Source of the DNA: Clostridium sp. BJN0001
GTDB lineage: Bacteria; Bacillota; Clostridia; Clostridiales; Clostridiaceae
NCBI RefSeq assembly: GCF_022869825.1
Contig: NZ_CP094971.1
Location: 17,501 to 81,500 of the forward strand
Direction of reading: 5' to 3'
DNA length: 64,000 nt
How positions within the stretch are numbered: position 1 is the first letter of the stretch; every line of letters begins with the position of its first letter. The notes below the pieces were generated by a model, which was given only the letters and a program-made list of their open reading frames with translations, ran no database searches and had not been told where the DNA came from. A program made the position numbers and the translations under genes. Positions 24,873-34,012 of this stretch are shown one piece after another.

Positions 24873-25406
24873 ATGATAACTAATATTTATGATACAAAAA
24901 TCATATCTAATTTAGATTCAAAAATCAAGTCATTAACGCAAAAATCCTATGATAAATTTATTAAAGACATAGATTTTCACAAACTTACTTGTTCCTGCGG
25001 AAGGTCCGGGCAGCTTGTAAAGCATGGTTATTACAAGAGAACTGTTAAAAACAGTGATGGCAAGATATCTATAACAATTCTTAGAGCAAAGTGTACATGT
25101 TGCAATAAAACTCATGCTATATTTCCAGAGTGTATTGTACCTTATTCTCAAATTCTTTTATGTGATCATATTTCAATTATTAATGCTTATAATTCCAAAG
25201 CTTCTTTTGAACCCATTATGATAGCTAATGAATTTATCGATGAAAGCAATATTTTTTATATAATAAAACAATATCTAGAGCATTGGAAGGAACGTATTAC
25301 TTCATTTAAAATTTCATTAGATTTAAGTATTTCAAAGCAATGTTTAAAAAACTTTAAAAGACAATTTATGCAAATTAAATGCATCAATAATATTTTATTT
25401 TCGTAA
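24873..25406 (+). CDS. DUF6431 zinc-finger-like protein of the transposon
   Basis: 177 residues. The N-terminal half has paired cysteines (LTCSCGRSG and KCTCCNKTHA) separated by a basic KHGYYKRTVK stretch, the DUF6431 pattern, suggesting a zinc-bound DNA-binding domain. The C-terminal half is helical and lacks motifs. This family regularly precedes rve-type transposase genes in clostridial elements; its role is unproven, possibly target or end recognition. No strong ribosome-binding site is visible. Confidence 0.65.
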   Translation: MITNIYDTKIISNLDSKIKSLTQKSYDKFIKDIDFHKLTCSCGRSGQLVKHGYYKRTVKNSDGKISITILRAKCTCCNKTHAIFPECIVPYSQILLCDHISIINAYNSKASFEPIMIANEFIDESNIFYIIKQYLEHWKERITSFKISLDLSISKQCLKNFKRQFMQIKCINNILFS

Positions 25407-25487
25407 AACCACATAACTTAGTTTTACTGTTAATTTATGTAGATATAAGCTTATATTGTAATAAAACAAAGGAGGCTTTTTCAAAAT

Positions 25488-26732
25488 ATGGACGAAAAAA
25501 CTAGAAAAGAAATAGCACTTTTCAGGTACGGAATCTTGGCTCCTCTGATAAGTGGTACTTATGATGAAAATAAAAGTGTTAAACAATTTTTCCGAGATGC
25601 CGCAGGCAAAGTATATCAGACTCCAGATGGTGAAGATACTAAGGTAGCTGCTGCTACTCTTGAACGTTGGTATTACAATTACAAGAATAAGGGCTTTGAG
25701 GCACTCATACCTGTAAAACGATGCGACACTGGAAGAACACGTAAATTAGATTCTGATATTACAGAACAGATTAAATATTTAAAACAAGAATATCCAAGAA
25801 TCCCAGCAACACTTATCTATCAAAAGCTTATTAACAATGGAACTATTGTTAAAGGAGATATTTCACTTTCAACAATTAATAGGTATGTTAATGTTCTTAA
25901 GCTTGAGAATAAATATTCTAAAAATAAAGATATGAAAAGATATGAGCGTGCTCATATAAATGAAGTATGGTGTGGTGACAGCAGCGTTGGACCTTATTTG
26001 AAGGTAGATGGTAAAAAGAAACGCGTTTACATAATAGCACTTATTGATGATGCTTCAAGATACATAACAGGAATAGATGTATTTTTTAATGATAATTTTG
26101 TAAATCTTATGTCTGTTTTAAAATCTGCTGTTACACGATTCGGGAAACCTAAAATCTTAAACTTTGATAATGGTGCTTCATATAAGAACAAGCAAATGGA
26201 ACTTTTAGCAGCTAGAATAGGTACAACTATTAGTTATTGTGCACCCTATACCCCACAATCAAAAGCTAAAATTGAAAGGTGGTTTCGTACATTAAAAGAT
26301 CAATGGATGTCCCAGCTTAATATGAATGATTTTAATAATTTAGATGAACTTAGGATAAGCCTTATTTCATATGTTAATAGCTATAATCAGCATATACATT
26401 CTTCTCTAGATGGACTATCTCCACAGGACAGGTTTTTCAAGGAATCTCACATGATTAAAAGGCTTACAGATGAACAAATTGAAACTTCCTTTTTACTTGA
26501 ATATGAAAGAAGAGTATCAGCCGATAACGTAGTTATGATAGATGAAACAGAATATGAAGTTGATTATAGATACTCAAAACAAAGAATAACCCTAAGATAT
26601 TCACCTGATTTAAGCAAAATTTATGTAGTTGATAAAAACACTTCTGAACTTACAGAAATAAAGCTTTTAAATAAGCATGATAATTCTGTTATAAAAAGGG
26701 AAAAAATAAAACTTACTGGAGGTCAAGAATAA
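25488..26732 (+). CDS. DDE-type transposase (rve/Mu-TniA-like)
   Basis: 414 residues with AAAGGAGG upstream. Residues 1-140 hold helix-turn-helix domains (AATLERWYYNYKNKGFEALIP). The rve catalytic core retains all three acidic residues: Asp in VWCGDSSVGP, Asp in LNFDNGASY and Glu in KAKIERWFRTLKDQ. The C-terminus is the Mu-type beta-barrel (YEVDYRYSKQRITLRYSPD). The next gene overlaps at its stop. Together they resemble TniA-TniB or MuA-MuB pairs, which cut DNA and choose the target respectively. Confidence 0.88.
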   Translation: MDEKTRKEIALFRYGILAPLISGTYDENKSVKQFFRDAAGKVYQTPDGEDTKVAAATLERWYYNYKNKGFEALIPVKRCDTGRTRKLDSDITEQIKYLKQEYPRIPATLIYQKLINNGTIVKGDISLSTINRYVNVLKLENKYSKNKDMKRYERAHINEVWCGDSSVGPYLKVDGKKKRVYIIALIDDASRYITGIDVFFNDNFVNLMSVLKSAVTRFGKPKILNFDNGASYKNKQMELLAARIGTTISYCAPYTPQSKAKIERWFRTLKDQWMSQLNMNDFNNLDELRISLISYVNSYNQHIHSSLDGLSPQDRFFKESHMIKRLTDEQIETSFLLEYERRVSADNVVMIDETEYEVDYRYSKQRITLRYSPDLSKIYVVDKNTSELTEIKLLNKHDNSVIKREKIKLTGGQE

Positions 26733-27535
26733 TGGATTATATAAGTAGATATGGAATGGATTTTAATCCGTTTATAAAAAATTCTAAGGAAATAGTAGTA
26801 GAAACTTCTGACTATAAAGAAGTTATTTGTAGACTTAATTATTTACTTAATAATAAAGGTTTCGGAATCCTGACCGGAGGTCCAGGGCGAGGTAAAAATA
26901 CAATAATAAGAAACTGGTCTAATAGCCTTAATTCATCACTTTATAAAGTTATTTATAGTTCCCTTTCTACACTTACTGTTGCAGAATTTTATAAAAATAT
27001 GGCTGCCCAGCTTGGACTAGAGCCAATGTGCAGAAAAATTGATAATTTCAAAATTATCCAAAATGAAATAACTAGATATTCAGTTGAAAAACGTATAACT
27101 CCTGTAATAATTATTGATGAAGCTAATTATGTAAGTAATGGAATACTTAATGATTTAAAAATGCTTTTTAATTTTGACATGGATTCAAGAGATCGTGCAA
27201 TAGTACTTCTTGTGGGGCTTCCTCAGTTAAATAATACCATGAGGCTAGTTGCTAATGAGCCTTTAAGACAACGTATAACAATGAATTATAATTTAGATAA
27301 TCTCACAAAATCAGAAACTAAAGACTATATATTAGCAAAGCTTACTGGTGCTAAATGTAATACTGATATTTTTGATGATACCGCTCTTGAAGCAATTGCT
27401 AACGCTTCGAACGGAGTTCCTAGAATTGTTAATAAAATCTGTGATTCTAGCCTTATGATAGGCAATACAAAAAATATGAATACAATTGATAGTGACATAA
27501 TAATGCTTGCTGTTAATGAAACTGAACTTGGATAA
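26732..27535 (+). CDS. AAA ATPase, ExeA/TniB-like transposition regulator
   Basis: 267 residues, overlapping the transposase stop codon (TAATG). Walker B is intact (VIIIDEANYV) and the sensor region LLVGLPQL and arginine-rich EPLRQRI follow. The Walker A reads GGPGRGKNT: the invariant Thr/Ser after the lysine is Asn, which normally breaks Mg-ATP binding. AAA proteins of this group (MuB, TniB, TnsC, IstB) bind target DNA with ATP. This copy may be inactive, making the element non-autonomous. Confidence 0.85.
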   Translation: MDYISRYGMDFNPFIKNSKEIVVETSDYKEVICRLNYLLNNKGFGILTGGPGRGKNTIIRNWSNSLNSSLYKVIYSSLSTLTVAEFYKNMAAQLGLEPMCRKIDNFKIIQNEITRYSVEKRITPVIIIDEANYVSNGILNDLKMLFNFDMDSRDRAIVLLVGLPQLNNTMRLVANEPLRQRITMNYNLDNLTKSETKDYILAKLTGAKCNTDIFDDTALEAIANASNGVPRIVNKICDSSLMIGNTKNMNTIDSDIIMLAVNETELG

Positions 27536-28135: not shown

Positions 28136-28522
28136 ATGATGCGTATTTCAGAATTTGACTACATTCCATTTAAGGATTCGTTTGGCATTTTATGGAACTT
28201 AACAGGAGAAGTACAGTTGAATTTAAAAGAAAGCTATGATGTTGATATATACAAAATTGGTGGCAGCACATTTATGTTTTCTACAAGTGAAAAAGAAGTC
28301 AAAGAATATAAAATAGATAGAATTTTTAATTTAGAAGTTTATTTTGAAGATGAAGAAAGTTTAATTTTAAGTGGAAAAATAATTGCTGATTTTAAAGTCG
28401 CTGATAAAAACCATTATGAATTTTTATATTTAGATACGAGGGAAGCTATAAGGGATAAATTGTTTAAGAGAATATTTAGTAAGCAAGTACAAATGAAGCG
28501 TTTAATCAATAATAGAATTTAA
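28136..28522 (+). CDS. PilZ-like domain protein, possibly N-terminally truncated
   Basis: 128 residues. The pattern GGSTFMFST, a central LILSGKIIADF strand and the ending REAIRDKLFKRIFSKQVQMKR fit a PilZ domain, but the RxxxR c-di-GMP signature is not seen. The frame stays open upstream to about 28052, across the GGGGACA repeat, reading FESKIKSDYHEGN before the ATG, as if an original N-terminal domain was lost at the element boundary. The AAGG before ATG-ATG is weak. PilZ assignment is moderate; function unknown. Confidence 0.5.
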   Translation: MMRISEFDYIPFKDSFGILWNLTGEVQLNLKESYDVDIYKIGGSTFMFSTSEKEVKEYKIDRIFNLEVYFEDEESLILSGKIIADFKVADKNHYEFLYLDTREAIRDKLFKRIFSKQVQMKRLINNRI

Positions 28523-28537
28523 ATCTATGTTTAAAAT

Positions 28538-28849
28538 TTATCTATATCTAAAATTATATCCGCAAGGCTGCCTATTATTACATCTTATTGGAAAATATCT
28601 AGCTGGTGGAATTTTAAGTGACGTAATTAATTTTGCCATTTCTTTTTCTTTGTGAGCATATGCACAAAGCAAATTACTTGTAAGAGCAACTCTTTTTTCA
28701 ATTGGTTTTACGCATTTTAATTCTTCCATAAAACATTCACAAAAAAGTATTTGTAGACATTTAGACATTTTAGCTTCAGCTTCAAGAATCTCTAACAGAT
28801 ATTTTTCATATATTAGATAATAAGTCTTATCAGCACAAATGTTATTCAT
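28538..28849 (-). CDS. Small Cys-containing protein, third paralogue of the BclA-like cluster
   Basis: 103 residues, unrecognised by name. A helical body (ILEAEAKMSKCLQILFCECF) and SNLLCAYAHKEKEMAKLI align with the two genes upstream, sharing the pattern AEA-x(n)-LF-x(n)-LLC-x-YA-x-KE. The C-terminus is Arg/Cys rich (RCNNRQPCGY). It is the most diverged of the three, and AAGGATGG precedes the ATG. Same strand and close spacing with two paralogues and a BclA-type protein suggest a shared structural role, probably on the spore. Confidence 0.55.
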   Translation of the reverse strand: MNNICADKTYYLIYEKYLLEILEAEAKMSKCLQILFCECFMEELKCVKPIEKRVALTSNLLCAYAHKEKEMAKLITSLKIPPARYFPIRCNNRQPCGYNFRYR

Positions 28850-28876
28850 ATATTGACCATCCTTATGAGTTATATT

Positions 28877-29200
28877 TTAACAATCTTTACCACAGTAGCA
28901 AGTTAAGCATTTGCAAATTACTTGTGGTGAAATTCCTAAGTCAGCAGCTTCTTTTTTAGTAGCTGCTGCAATTACTGTAGCAACTGAATTTTCTTTAGAA
29001 GTATATCCACATAATATTTTTTTTAAATAAGATATTTGTTTTTCTACTTCATCTGCTGTTGGAGTTTCACTAACCACATCTTTTAATGATTCAACTAAGT
29101 GGTTACAAAATAAATCTGCCATACCTTGTACAATATTAACTTCAGATTCGATTATAGATCTTACAGACGCTAAGTCTGAATGAGTTGGTGTAACTGACAT
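28877..29200 (-). CDS. Small Cys-containing protein, second paralogue of the BclA-like cluster
   Basis: 107 residues after AAGGAGG. It shares with the next upstream gene the pattern ESE-x-x-x-VQGMADLF, a central LKKILCGYTSKEN and a Cys-rich tail (ICKCLTCYCGKDC). Mostly helical, without signal peptide or transmembrane segment, so it is made in the cytoplasm of whichever cell expresses it. Multiple C-terminal cysteines suit disulfide cross-linking as in exosporium and coat proteins (inference). I know no named family for it. Confidence 0.6.
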   Translation of the reverse strand: MSVTPTHSDLASVRSIIESEVNIVQGMADLFCNHLVESLKDVVSETPTADEVEKQISYLKKILCGYTSKENSVATVIAAATKKEAADLGISPQVICKCLTCYCGKDC

Positions 29201-29216
29201 TATTATTCCTCCTTAA

Positions 29217-29534
29217 TTATTTTATAGAACATTTACAATCACAGTCATCTTTAATTAAAGCACTTTCTAATGCAACTTTGCATGAAAGTGAATTGAAAAT
29301 ATCTGCTATTGTAAGTTCTTTACATGCATAAGTGCAAAGAATATCTTTTATCAAAGATGATTCTGTATCAATATCAGCTATTGATTTAACATTTTCTACT
29401 AGTGTTCCTTCAGGAGAGGCATTATTATAAAATAAATCACTCATACATTCTAATAAACCTGCTTCTGCTTCTGCTATTGCATTTATATAAACATCGTTAG
29501 TTTCTGTACCATTAACCAAACTTTGCCAAGCCAT
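29217..29534 (-). CDS. Small Cys-containing protein, first paralogue of the BclA-like cluster
   Basis: 105 residues after GGAGG. It shows AIAEAEAGLLECMSDLFYNN, then IKDILCTYACKELTIADI and a tail DDCDCKCSIK. Its two landmarks align with both following genes, so the three arose by tandem duplication and then diverged strongly. A sporulation-type -10 element lies about 50 bp upstream. No enzyme motif is present; a structural or scaffold role is inferred from the cysteines and the BclA-like neighbour. Confidence 0.6.
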   Translation of the reverse strand: MAWQSLVNGTETNDVYINAIAEAEAGLLECMSDLFYNNASPEGTLVENVKSIADIDTESSLIKDILCTYACKELTIADIFNSLSCKVALESALIKDDCDCKCSIK

Positions 29535-29583
29535 ACATAATTCCTCCGTTTTTTACATTTATTTTTTTCTTTCTACATAAAAC

Positions 29584-29611
29584 AGTATATGAAAATTAGA
29601 GAATATTGTTA
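29584..29611 (-). promoter_or_regulatory. Possible sporulation-sigma promoter of the small-protein genes
   Basis: On the minus strand CATATACT (29584-29591) matches 7 of 8 positions of the SigE -10 consensus and begins with the CATA of SigK -10 boxes. AACA (29607-29610) lies 15 bp upstream, near the SigK -35 position. No good sigma-A promoter is visible in the same gap. Weak but consistent with a spore role. Confidence 0.35.
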
Positions 29612-29629
29612 CTAAATTAATATAATATT

Positions 29630-30130
29630 TTAAATCGAGCAATCCAATCGCTTTATAAGAACTGAGAAAAGAATATCATCTTTTCCAGCATTGTTTAAAT
29701 TTATAGGAGACTGGGTATTTATAGACAAATTAAGGTTAGACATTGCTGAAGTTACTTTGATTATTGTCTGACCATAAAGAATTGTAGAAGAATTATCTAC
29801 AATGTAATTACTATCAGAAACTTTACTTCCATTTAATTTTATAAAAGCAGTTACATTACCTAAATCAAGTACATAATGAATTTCATATATGCCAGGCTCT
29901 AATATAATAATATCAGCTGATGATATTGCGTGAGATATGCCCTTTAAATTAGAATTTCCATTGAAAACTAAATTATTTTCTCCAGCTGGTAAATTTAATG
30001 AATCCCCATCTTCAAATAAAAAAAATATATATCCATATGCATGTTGACAAATGGAGGGAACATCTTCAAAACATTTAAAACATCTATCCATATAATTATG
30101 GAAGTCATAACAACAATACATTTTATTCAT
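29630..30130 (-). CDS. BclA C-terminal-domain-like (exosporium) protein without collagen repeat
   Basis: 166 residues after AGGAGATG. The first 30 residues carry five cysteines (6, 7, 17, 20, 28). Residues about 35-164 match the TNF-like jelly roll that ends BclA glycoproteins: LPAGENNLVFNG, ILEPGIYEIHYVLDL, AFIKLNGSKVSDSNYIV, TILYGQTIIKVT and the final SVLIKRLD. The Gly-X-X collagen-like stalk is absent, so the cap domain sits directly behind a Cys-rich leader. Heads the four-gene minus-strand cluster; a spore-surface role is inferred from the family. Confidence 0.78.
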   Translation of the reverse strand: MNKMYCCYDFHNYMDRCFKCFEDVPSICQHAYGYIFFLFEDGDSLNLPAGENNLVFNGNSNLKGISHAISSADIIILEPGIYEIHYVLDLGNVTAFIKLNGSKVSDSNYIVDNSSTILYGQTIIKVTSAMSNLNLSINTQSPINLNNAGKDDILFSVLIKRLDCSI

Positions 30131-32739: not shown

Positions 32740-32869
32740 AAGCAGACACTCCTTAATTTTTATTTATATATTAATTATAGACTATATTATTTTTATTCAA
32801 ACAATTTATGGAATAAATAATATATAAATGTGTATATTATATATTATAAAAGTAGATTGGAGAAGAAAT

Positions 32870-34012
32870 ATGGGAATTAATACACTTATTAATTTACTTG
32901 ATGAACATAATGAAGCAAACCTTATAGCAACAGATAAATTTATGCCACATAATGTTATTTATGTTTTTGATAAGCATCAATTTAAAATTTATAGACGAAT
33001 AGAAGCTTATTATAAAAGAGTATTCCCTAAAATAAATGTTAGATATTTTCTTATGAATAATTATAGTGCTAGATCAGCAGAAATACTGCTTAATAAAGTA
33101 AATGCTGATGATACTATAATCAATATAACAGGGGGAAAGAGGATAGATTCTCTGATAATATTAAATATGGCTAAGTCTTTAAATTTTAGAGTTATTTATA
33201 TTGATGCTTTGAAAAAAAAATTATATGAATTTGATGGCTTAGTTACAATTAGTAAAATAAAATTTAGAGATATGTTTCTTGAAGATATATTTAAAACAAC
33301 AGGAATTAAAATAATAAATGATTCAAGTTATCTTTTAAACAACCATGACATAGTCAGAATTTCAAACATTATACATAACAATCTTGAACTTTGGGATAAG
33401 TATAAGATAAAGCTTTATAATAATGAGATATTTGAACATACATCATCAGAATGTAACAAAGTAGTTGTTCATATGGATAATATAGATGAAGATGAAAAAA
33501 ATTTGATATCTAATTCGATAAGATATTTATATGAAAAAAAGATAATAAGATATAAGAATAAGAATAATCTTATAGAAGTTGATTTTATTAAAGAACATAT
33601 AAGGAGTTTTATTTTTAAAAGTGGTACATGGCTCGAAATATTTACGGCAAATATAATAAGAGAAATTTATCAGATTGATGAGGTAAAATGTGGAGTCACA
33701 TTTGTATGGAATAATGAAAAAATACGCGTTACAAATGAACTCGATGTTATCGCAGTGTATGATACAAATGTAATATGCATTTCATGCAAAGATAGTGAAA
33801 AATATGATGAAGATGCATTAAATGAACTTGATGTATATAGCAAAAGAATTGGAGGAGACAATGTTAAAAAGATACTTGTCTCAACAAAAATGCCCGCAAA
33901 AAGATGCGTTATAAAGAGAGCAGAAGCTATGAACATTCATATTATAATACTTGGTAAAAACATAAAAGAATTTAAAAATAAAATAAAAAAATATTGCAAT
34001 ATAAAATATTAA
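32870..34012 (+). CDS. Card1/DUF1887-like CARF-nuclease, CRISPR-independent locus
   Basis: 380 residues from ATG 32870 (GGAGAAG upstream; the 32828 start lacks one). The N-terminal part is CARF-like, with the nucleotide-binding motif NITGGKR near residue 85. A winged-helix segment follows, then a PD-(D/E)XK nuclease with GTWLEIF and NELDVIAV (Glu290, Asp292) and ISCK ending at Lys307. The glutamate expected in an ExK motif is Ser305. Known Card1/Can2 proteins are cyclic-oligoadenylate-activated nucleases of type III CRISPR, and the length matches. No cas gene or array is in the window, so ligand and role are open. Confidence 0.75.
   Translation: MGINTLINLLDEHNEANLIATDKFMPHNVIYVFDKHQFKIYRRIEAYYKRVFPKINVRYFLMNNYSARSAEILLNKVNADDTIINITGGKRIDSLIILNMAKSLNFRVIYIDALKKKLYEFDGLVTISKIKFRDMFLEDIFKTTGIKIINDSSYLLNNHDIVRISNIIHNNLELWDKYKIKLYNNEIFEHTSSECNKVVVHMDNIDEDEKNLISNSIRYLYEKKIIRYKNKNNLIEVDFIKEHIRSFIFKSGTWLEIFTANIIREIYQIDEVKCGVTFVWNNEKIRVTNELDVIAVYDTNVICISCKDSEKYDEDALNELDVYSKRIGGDNVKKILVSTKMPAKRCVIKRAEAMNIHIIILGKNIKEFKNKIKKYCNIKY

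Follow-up and report, generated by a model that had tools for sequence, protein, structure and literature searches.

What can four neighbouring genes of Clostridium sp. BJN0001, one of them related to BclA and the other three to each other, build together? The genes lie in a stretch of 64,000 nucleotides, the window, which corresponds to bases 17501-81500 of a 2,688,791-base single-contig genome (NZ_CP094971.1), and they encode a head protein and three small paralogues named here A, B and C (Table 1). Together they probably build part of the outer shell of the spore, with A, B and C holding the head. More precisely, the reading preferred here, with a probability of about 0.6, is that of a small assembly of the spore surface (outer coat or exosporium), made late in the mother cell, where stalkless BclA-type heads would rest on a cross-linked support built of A, B and C; the putative spore role of the set is well supported. 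All four open reading frames were found on the minus strand where a first-pass annotation of this DNA had placed them. That annotation also described the paralogues as lying directly behind the head gene; they are indeed the next genes, but A starts only after a gap of 95 bp, the gaps between A and B and between B and C being 16 and 27 bp, and GGAGG stretches resembling ribosome-binding sites precede A and B.

Judged by sequence comparison, A, B and C are true paralogues whose kinship goes beyond chance. When the window's genome was searched with B, the only other proteins matched up to E 10 were A (E 3.4e-6) and C (E 0.014); a profile of the B family added one place (E 0.0037) whose frame is broken by four stops and which was taken as chance. 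Profile-profile comparison with hhalign joined all three families (A/B E 6.7e-15, C/B 1e-12, A/C 7e-14; probabilities of 98.4, 97.8 and 98.1 % among the three profiles), in line with the shared central motif noticed at first reading, present as YACKE, YTSKE and YAHKE. A Lys-Glu pair with an alanine four residues later occurs without exception in the first alignment, of 34 members, and in 34 of the 41 of a later set. Cysteine makes up 6.7 % of A, 6.5 % of B and 7.8 % of C, the 41 reading frames of the window that reach 150 residues (head included) averaging 1.43 %, and ranges from 2.8 to 11.5 % across the 41 family sequences. Several of these residues are kept among relatives: C64 (14/15) and C96 (15/15) of B, C71 of A (13/14) and C37 of C (12/12). 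The high cysteine content announced for the three proteins thus stands, but its placement in cysteine-rich tails does not hold for C, which has just two cysteines in its last 20 residues. A hydrophobic C-terminal stretch was seen by eye in six of the 12 C relatives (four from Caloramator, together with genomes G112 and G159 of our numbering) and is absent from C of the window.

Among the paralogues, structure prediction covers B, whose model (pLDDT 77.3, pTM 0.53) has a two-helix hairpin followed by a short third helix and a loose cysteine tail; A and C may share this fold. Foldseek found nothing under E 0.001 for the B model, the best match being at E 1.5. Pfam scans over 34 paralogue rows gave no family in more than three rows (best E 0.0016) and no coat family among the 25 of 27 families listed, and NCBIfam gave no coat family for A, B and C of the window (up to E 1) or for three relatives (up to E 0.1). 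A known family for the paralogues was therefore rejected, as Pfam and PHROGs over the 34 rows and NCBIfam over these six proteins returned scattered weak matches only. In a gene tree of 41 rows, a C clade is supported at 98/99 for ten of the 12 C rows, those of G199 and G201 standing on long branches next to B; the tree does not separate A from B, so only C is claimed as an old branch. The set is under purifying selection in two genome pairs, with dN/dS between 0.04 and 0.20 in nine gene pairs.

A B profile, built with rows from six of the strong carriers reported here, matched 17 of the order's 225 genomes at E 0.01 and 13 of those strongly (E 1.5e-12 or better): the window's genome (G000), four of Caloramator (G038, G040, G046, G051), G112, G159, G180 (Clostridium algidicarnis), G181, G199, G201, and G213 and G214 of the Oceanirhabdus genus. 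A second, near-identical contig copy in G051 (locus L025) was left out of the counts, as were G171 and G146 (E 0.003-0.006), the former with one weak reading frame, and locus L029 of G026 had no match. Nine of the 13, from five genera, carry the head together with A, B and C (G000, the four Caloramator, G112, G201, G213, G214), and six of these keep the order head-A-B-C, so that the conserved order first proposed was borne out well beyond the window. In G201 the order is C-head-A-B. In the two genomes of Oceanirhabdus type, a DUF11 protein is accompanied by three heads, A-B-A-B and C. The tail of that DUF11 protein had hinted at kinship with the paralogues (E 0.002); it could not be told from 400 shuffled tails and was dropped. 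Among the remaining carriers, G159 and G199 keep all three small proteins, G180 has B and a short C, and G181 a single member. Co-occurrence with BclA domains, which the first-pass annotation had suggested checking by profile search, was seen: a head profile matched 25 of the 225 genomes at E 0.001, and its nine best were exactly the nine full-set genomes (at least 88.7 bits, against 59.4 for the next), five of which had contributed to the profile.

Six loci of the 16 other head-matching genomes were examined, plus one separate locus of G214, and collagen stalks were seen in G165 (45 and 15 triplets), G160 (32), G015 (6) and the separate G214 locus (11 triplets behind a cysteine-rich leader). 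In G089 the head-like domain sits on an unrelated protein of 310 residues. This genome also has two small proteins with a common EEIGLSHI(L/I)NAEGEK motif (L128 4450-5443), next to a DUF11 protein and to a protein that ends like BclA; no Pfam or NCBIfam family was found for the two up to E 0.1.

The head of the window matches Pfam BclA_C at E 2.4e-6 with 27.9 bits, below the curated cut-off of 38. It is related to BclA by sequence, and a weak model (mean pLDDT 53.9, low confidence) gives the same fold, apparently closer to BclA than to ExsFA/BxpB, the nearest solved structure being the F-ENA tip protein F-BclA. Of the six cysteines of the head, five fall within the first 40 residues and one is at position 164, and Cys 17 and Cys 20 of the leader are kept in 13 of 13 aligned heads. 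The longest Gly-X-Y run is one triplet in this head and at most two across the 13; the description of a BclA-type head with a cysteine leader and no stalk was therefore right. NCBIfam gave no match for the window head up to E 1, in a search where HMMER filters drop weak matches and in a release not checked for TIGR03720, the family given in PMC11952670 for the N-terminal exosporium leader. Moreover, neither the window's genome nor six of the eight other full-set genomes gave a collagen match (PF01391) at E 0.001.

A SigE/SigK-like -10 element had also been claimed, and a SigK-like pattern does exist; it lies before A, however, with none within 200 bp before the head gene of the window. The pattern GTAnCA-N12..16-CATA occurs within 160 bp upstream of ten of 20 unit starts (nine of 13 genomes) as compared with one of 172 other genes of the same loci, a comparison in which the unit starts were our own choice, a genome has up to three tries against one for a gene, and related genomes are not independent. 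Counted over all set genes it precedes 11 of 54. It was drawn up after the window and Caloramator had been viewed, and is thus partly post hoc; in the eight remaining genomes it was present in four. A looser version (AC-N15..17-CATAnnnT) was found in seven of 13 genomes versus five of 172 genes. In Clostridium difficile, SigK promoters are reported to have AC at -35, with CATATAAT as the -10 box of one of them, and bclA1 to drop to 0.08 in a sigK mutant (PMC3789822).

Regarding the spore, the marker gene SpoIVA is present in all 17 order genomes matched by the B profile and in G749, G700 and G646 of a phylum-wide sample, hence in all 16 strong carriers (13 in the order and three in that sample). 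The expected co-occurrence with spore-formers is found in this way, but as a test it is weak: 336 of the 398 sampled phylum genomes have SpoIVA, so its presence in the carriers excludes little. The genome lacking it, G675, had a weak paralogue match (E 2.9e-4) with one internal stop, and a second look found no matching reading frame. More telling is the gene neighbourhood in the remote lineage of G749, with one 8-kb stretch that holds sigG together with three A/B-type paralogues and a C-like one. It also contains two SipL-type proteins, at 33.3 bits (above cut-off) and 18.1 (below), a protein resembling the BMQ_0737 coat family (25.7 bits, cut-off 71) and, alongside the paralogues (L137 4388-9430), two cysteine-rich proteins of 372 and 268 residues.

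The paralogues are present in Clostridiaceae, in Caloramator and, on their own, in this remote lineage. A word-based search of 5.8 billion proteins recovered 26 members at E 0.01, including the three of the window; those with a name are from Caloramator, C. algidicarnis and Oceanirhabdus. In a class-wide sample, seven of 391 genomes matched, two of them strongly and both among the known carriers, the weak ones being G404, G459, G540, G571 and G582 (E 7.9e-4 to 0.0098); five of the 398 phylum genomes did at E 0.001 (G000, G749, G700, G646 and weakly G675). Because this distribution is scattered, horizontal transfer is likely. A phage or mobile origin was considered and rejected, B, the member searched, having no relative in viral contigs. 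G219 (L067 6527-8098) and G223 (L068 6838-7599) each encode one larger protein with a C-like domain fused to a long low-complexity or cysteine-rich tail.

How would such a set work? Expressed late in the mother cell, the head may form a jelly-roll trimer of BclA type displayed outward, its cysteine leader replacing both the collagen stalk and the exosporium leader, whereas A, B and C, as helical-hairpin proteins with cysteine tails, would co-assemble and cross-link, presumably through disulfides, into the support to which that leader ties the head by disulfides or close packing. The parts mirror those of the Bacillus exosporium, where cysteine-rich proteins build cross-linked lattices (PMC7333573), and no collagen match was obtained in seven of nine full-set genomes; for these two reasons stalkless trimers seated on an A/B/C support through the cysteine leader are preferred.

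The closest rival equates the head with ExsFA/BxpB: it would be a clostridial jelly-roll trimer of the basal layer that docks the N-terminus of collagen-like hairs, with A, B and C in the place of ExsY/CotY. BxpB is reported to be a stalkless jelly roll with cysteines only at its N-terminus and is proposed to bond the cysteine-rich ExsY; length (~167 residues), N-terminal cysteines and cysteine-rich partners are alike in the two cases (PMC10470788). Clostridia have been described as devoid of ExsF (PMC4942563, PMC7333573). Unlike BxpB, however, the window head has its extra cysteine at 164, and none of the scans linked the paralogues to a coat family. The hairs to be anchored find no collagen match in seven of the nine full-set genomes, the window's included, which makes the head more likely a surface end product than an anchor and this explanation unlikely. 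The nearest solved structure and a head leader that recalls the CC motif reported in L-BclA and in S/L-ENA subunits (PMC11952670, a preprint) would rather suit a spore appendage, or pilus, with the heads as fibre tip or subunit and the paralogues as base. This is quite unlikely, as the set lacks an evident fibre subunit, B is predicted helical and not a jelly roll, and the F-ENA subunit family DUF4183 had no match at E 0.001 in any of the 13 carriers, in a search that did not include the S-ENA genes (DUF3992). As in B. anthracis BclA and B. thuringiensis F-BclA, the C-terminal domain of the head appears to be a jelly roll by sequence (BclA_C, F-BclA C-terminal domain) and by its low-confidence model; it differs from both in having a cysteine leader in place of stalk and detectable exosporium leader.

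It is also conceivable, if rather improbable, that A, B and C, instead of forming a structural support, use their cysteines for redox chemistry or metal binding in or on the spore, since tails of CxC type (e.g. CKCLTCYCGKDC) could bind metal and the paralogues persist headless in four genomes. Against this, the number and spacing of tail cysteines vary between orthologues, unlike a fixed metal site, and three diverged copies kept with a surface head would fit a multi-part structure better. Finally, the scattered distribution, a transposase/AAA gene pair ~1 kb away (25488-27535) and flanking genes that differ from genus to genus beyond the set could be taken for a vegetative surface system or mobile-element cargo; with a BclA-type head, SigK-like promoter pattern, the sigG and SipL-domain neighbourhood of G749, SpoIVA in 16 of 16 strong carriers and no viral relative of B, a role outside the spore is highly improbable. 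In clostridia, cysteine-rich spore proteins are known to be encoded near BclA-like proteins (PMC7333573), but CsxA and CsxB of the Clostridium sporogenes exosporium, with 299 residues and 25 cysteines and 151 residues and ten, are set apart by length and cysteine number from the three paralogues of 103-107 residues, here without collagen, and the BclA of that species is described as having collagen repeats and otherwise no homology to that of B. anthracis (PMC4942563).

Several observations weigh against the cross-linked support proposed here. The promoter pattern is missing in four of 13 genomes and before the head of the window, the head model is of low confidence, and 35 other genomes of the window's genus have no paralogue match better than E 0.11. 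In four of the 13 carriers (G159, G180, G181, G199) the head profile matched nothing at E 0.001; the A/B/C genes can thus persist without a head. Conversely, stalkless heads exist without A, B and C in G166 (L125 5601-6101) and G162 (L126 5734-6234), where the stalk was probably lost in another line too; the ICTAPC leader of the G166 head suggests such a loss, as it recurs in proteins of that genus that carry collagen stalks (L127, L131). Since no relative of the paralogues is known and no fold significantly matched the B model, scaffold is a role assigned by analogy.

Table 1. Features of the four-gene locus, in window coordinates.
Feature	Position	Strand
Head protein, 166 aa, BclA C-terminal-type (C1q/TNF jelly roll) domain, collagen stalk absent	29630..30130	minus
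Cysteine-rich head leader, residues 1-28 (Cys 6, 7, 17, 20, 28)	30047..30130	minus
SigK-like promoter pattern GTAACA-N15-CATATACTG, upstream of A	29612..29583	minus
Paralogue A, 105 aa, tail with cysteines	29217..29534	minus
Paralogue B, 107 aa, predicted helices 9-40, 49-87 and 92-100, then low-confidence Cys tail	28877..29200	minus
Paralogue C, 103 aa, clade with the longest branch of the three	28538..28849	minus

Around the set, a plus-strand reading frame of 128 residues (28136-28522) with no family above cut-off lies just past gene C, and some 1 kb away there is a transposon-like unit of consecutive genes for a DUF6431 protein, an rve/Mu-type transposase and an AAA ATPase (24873-27535). 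On the other side, a Card1-like nuclease gene (32828-34012; Pfam Card1_endonuc, 60.3 bits, above cut-off) stands beside a gene read by eye as recQ-like. In Caloramator (L024-L028) the set adjoins a catabolic-looking locus with microcompartment-shell-like, hydantoinase-like and PucR-like genes, labelled by reading.

While the head varies a kind of protein already known, the novelty lies in the support: within the libraries scanned and the open-licence papers covered, a three-part A/B/C support is undescribed, in agreement with the first-pass annotation, which knew of no such set. More tentatively, and at somewhat less than even odds, the paralogues could represent a novel family from which the spore surface is built: a three-part support of helical hairpins with cysteine tails, without kinship to the catalogued coat families, that carries BclA-type heads directly on the spore in species without collagen-like hairs. 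A, B and C add a protein family without entry in the libraries scanned, and in Caloramator, a genus of non-pathogenic thermophiles, the compact linked set of head and support offers a four-gene system open to expression and imaging. If the proposal is true, it would represent another way of building an exosporium-like layer in clostridia.
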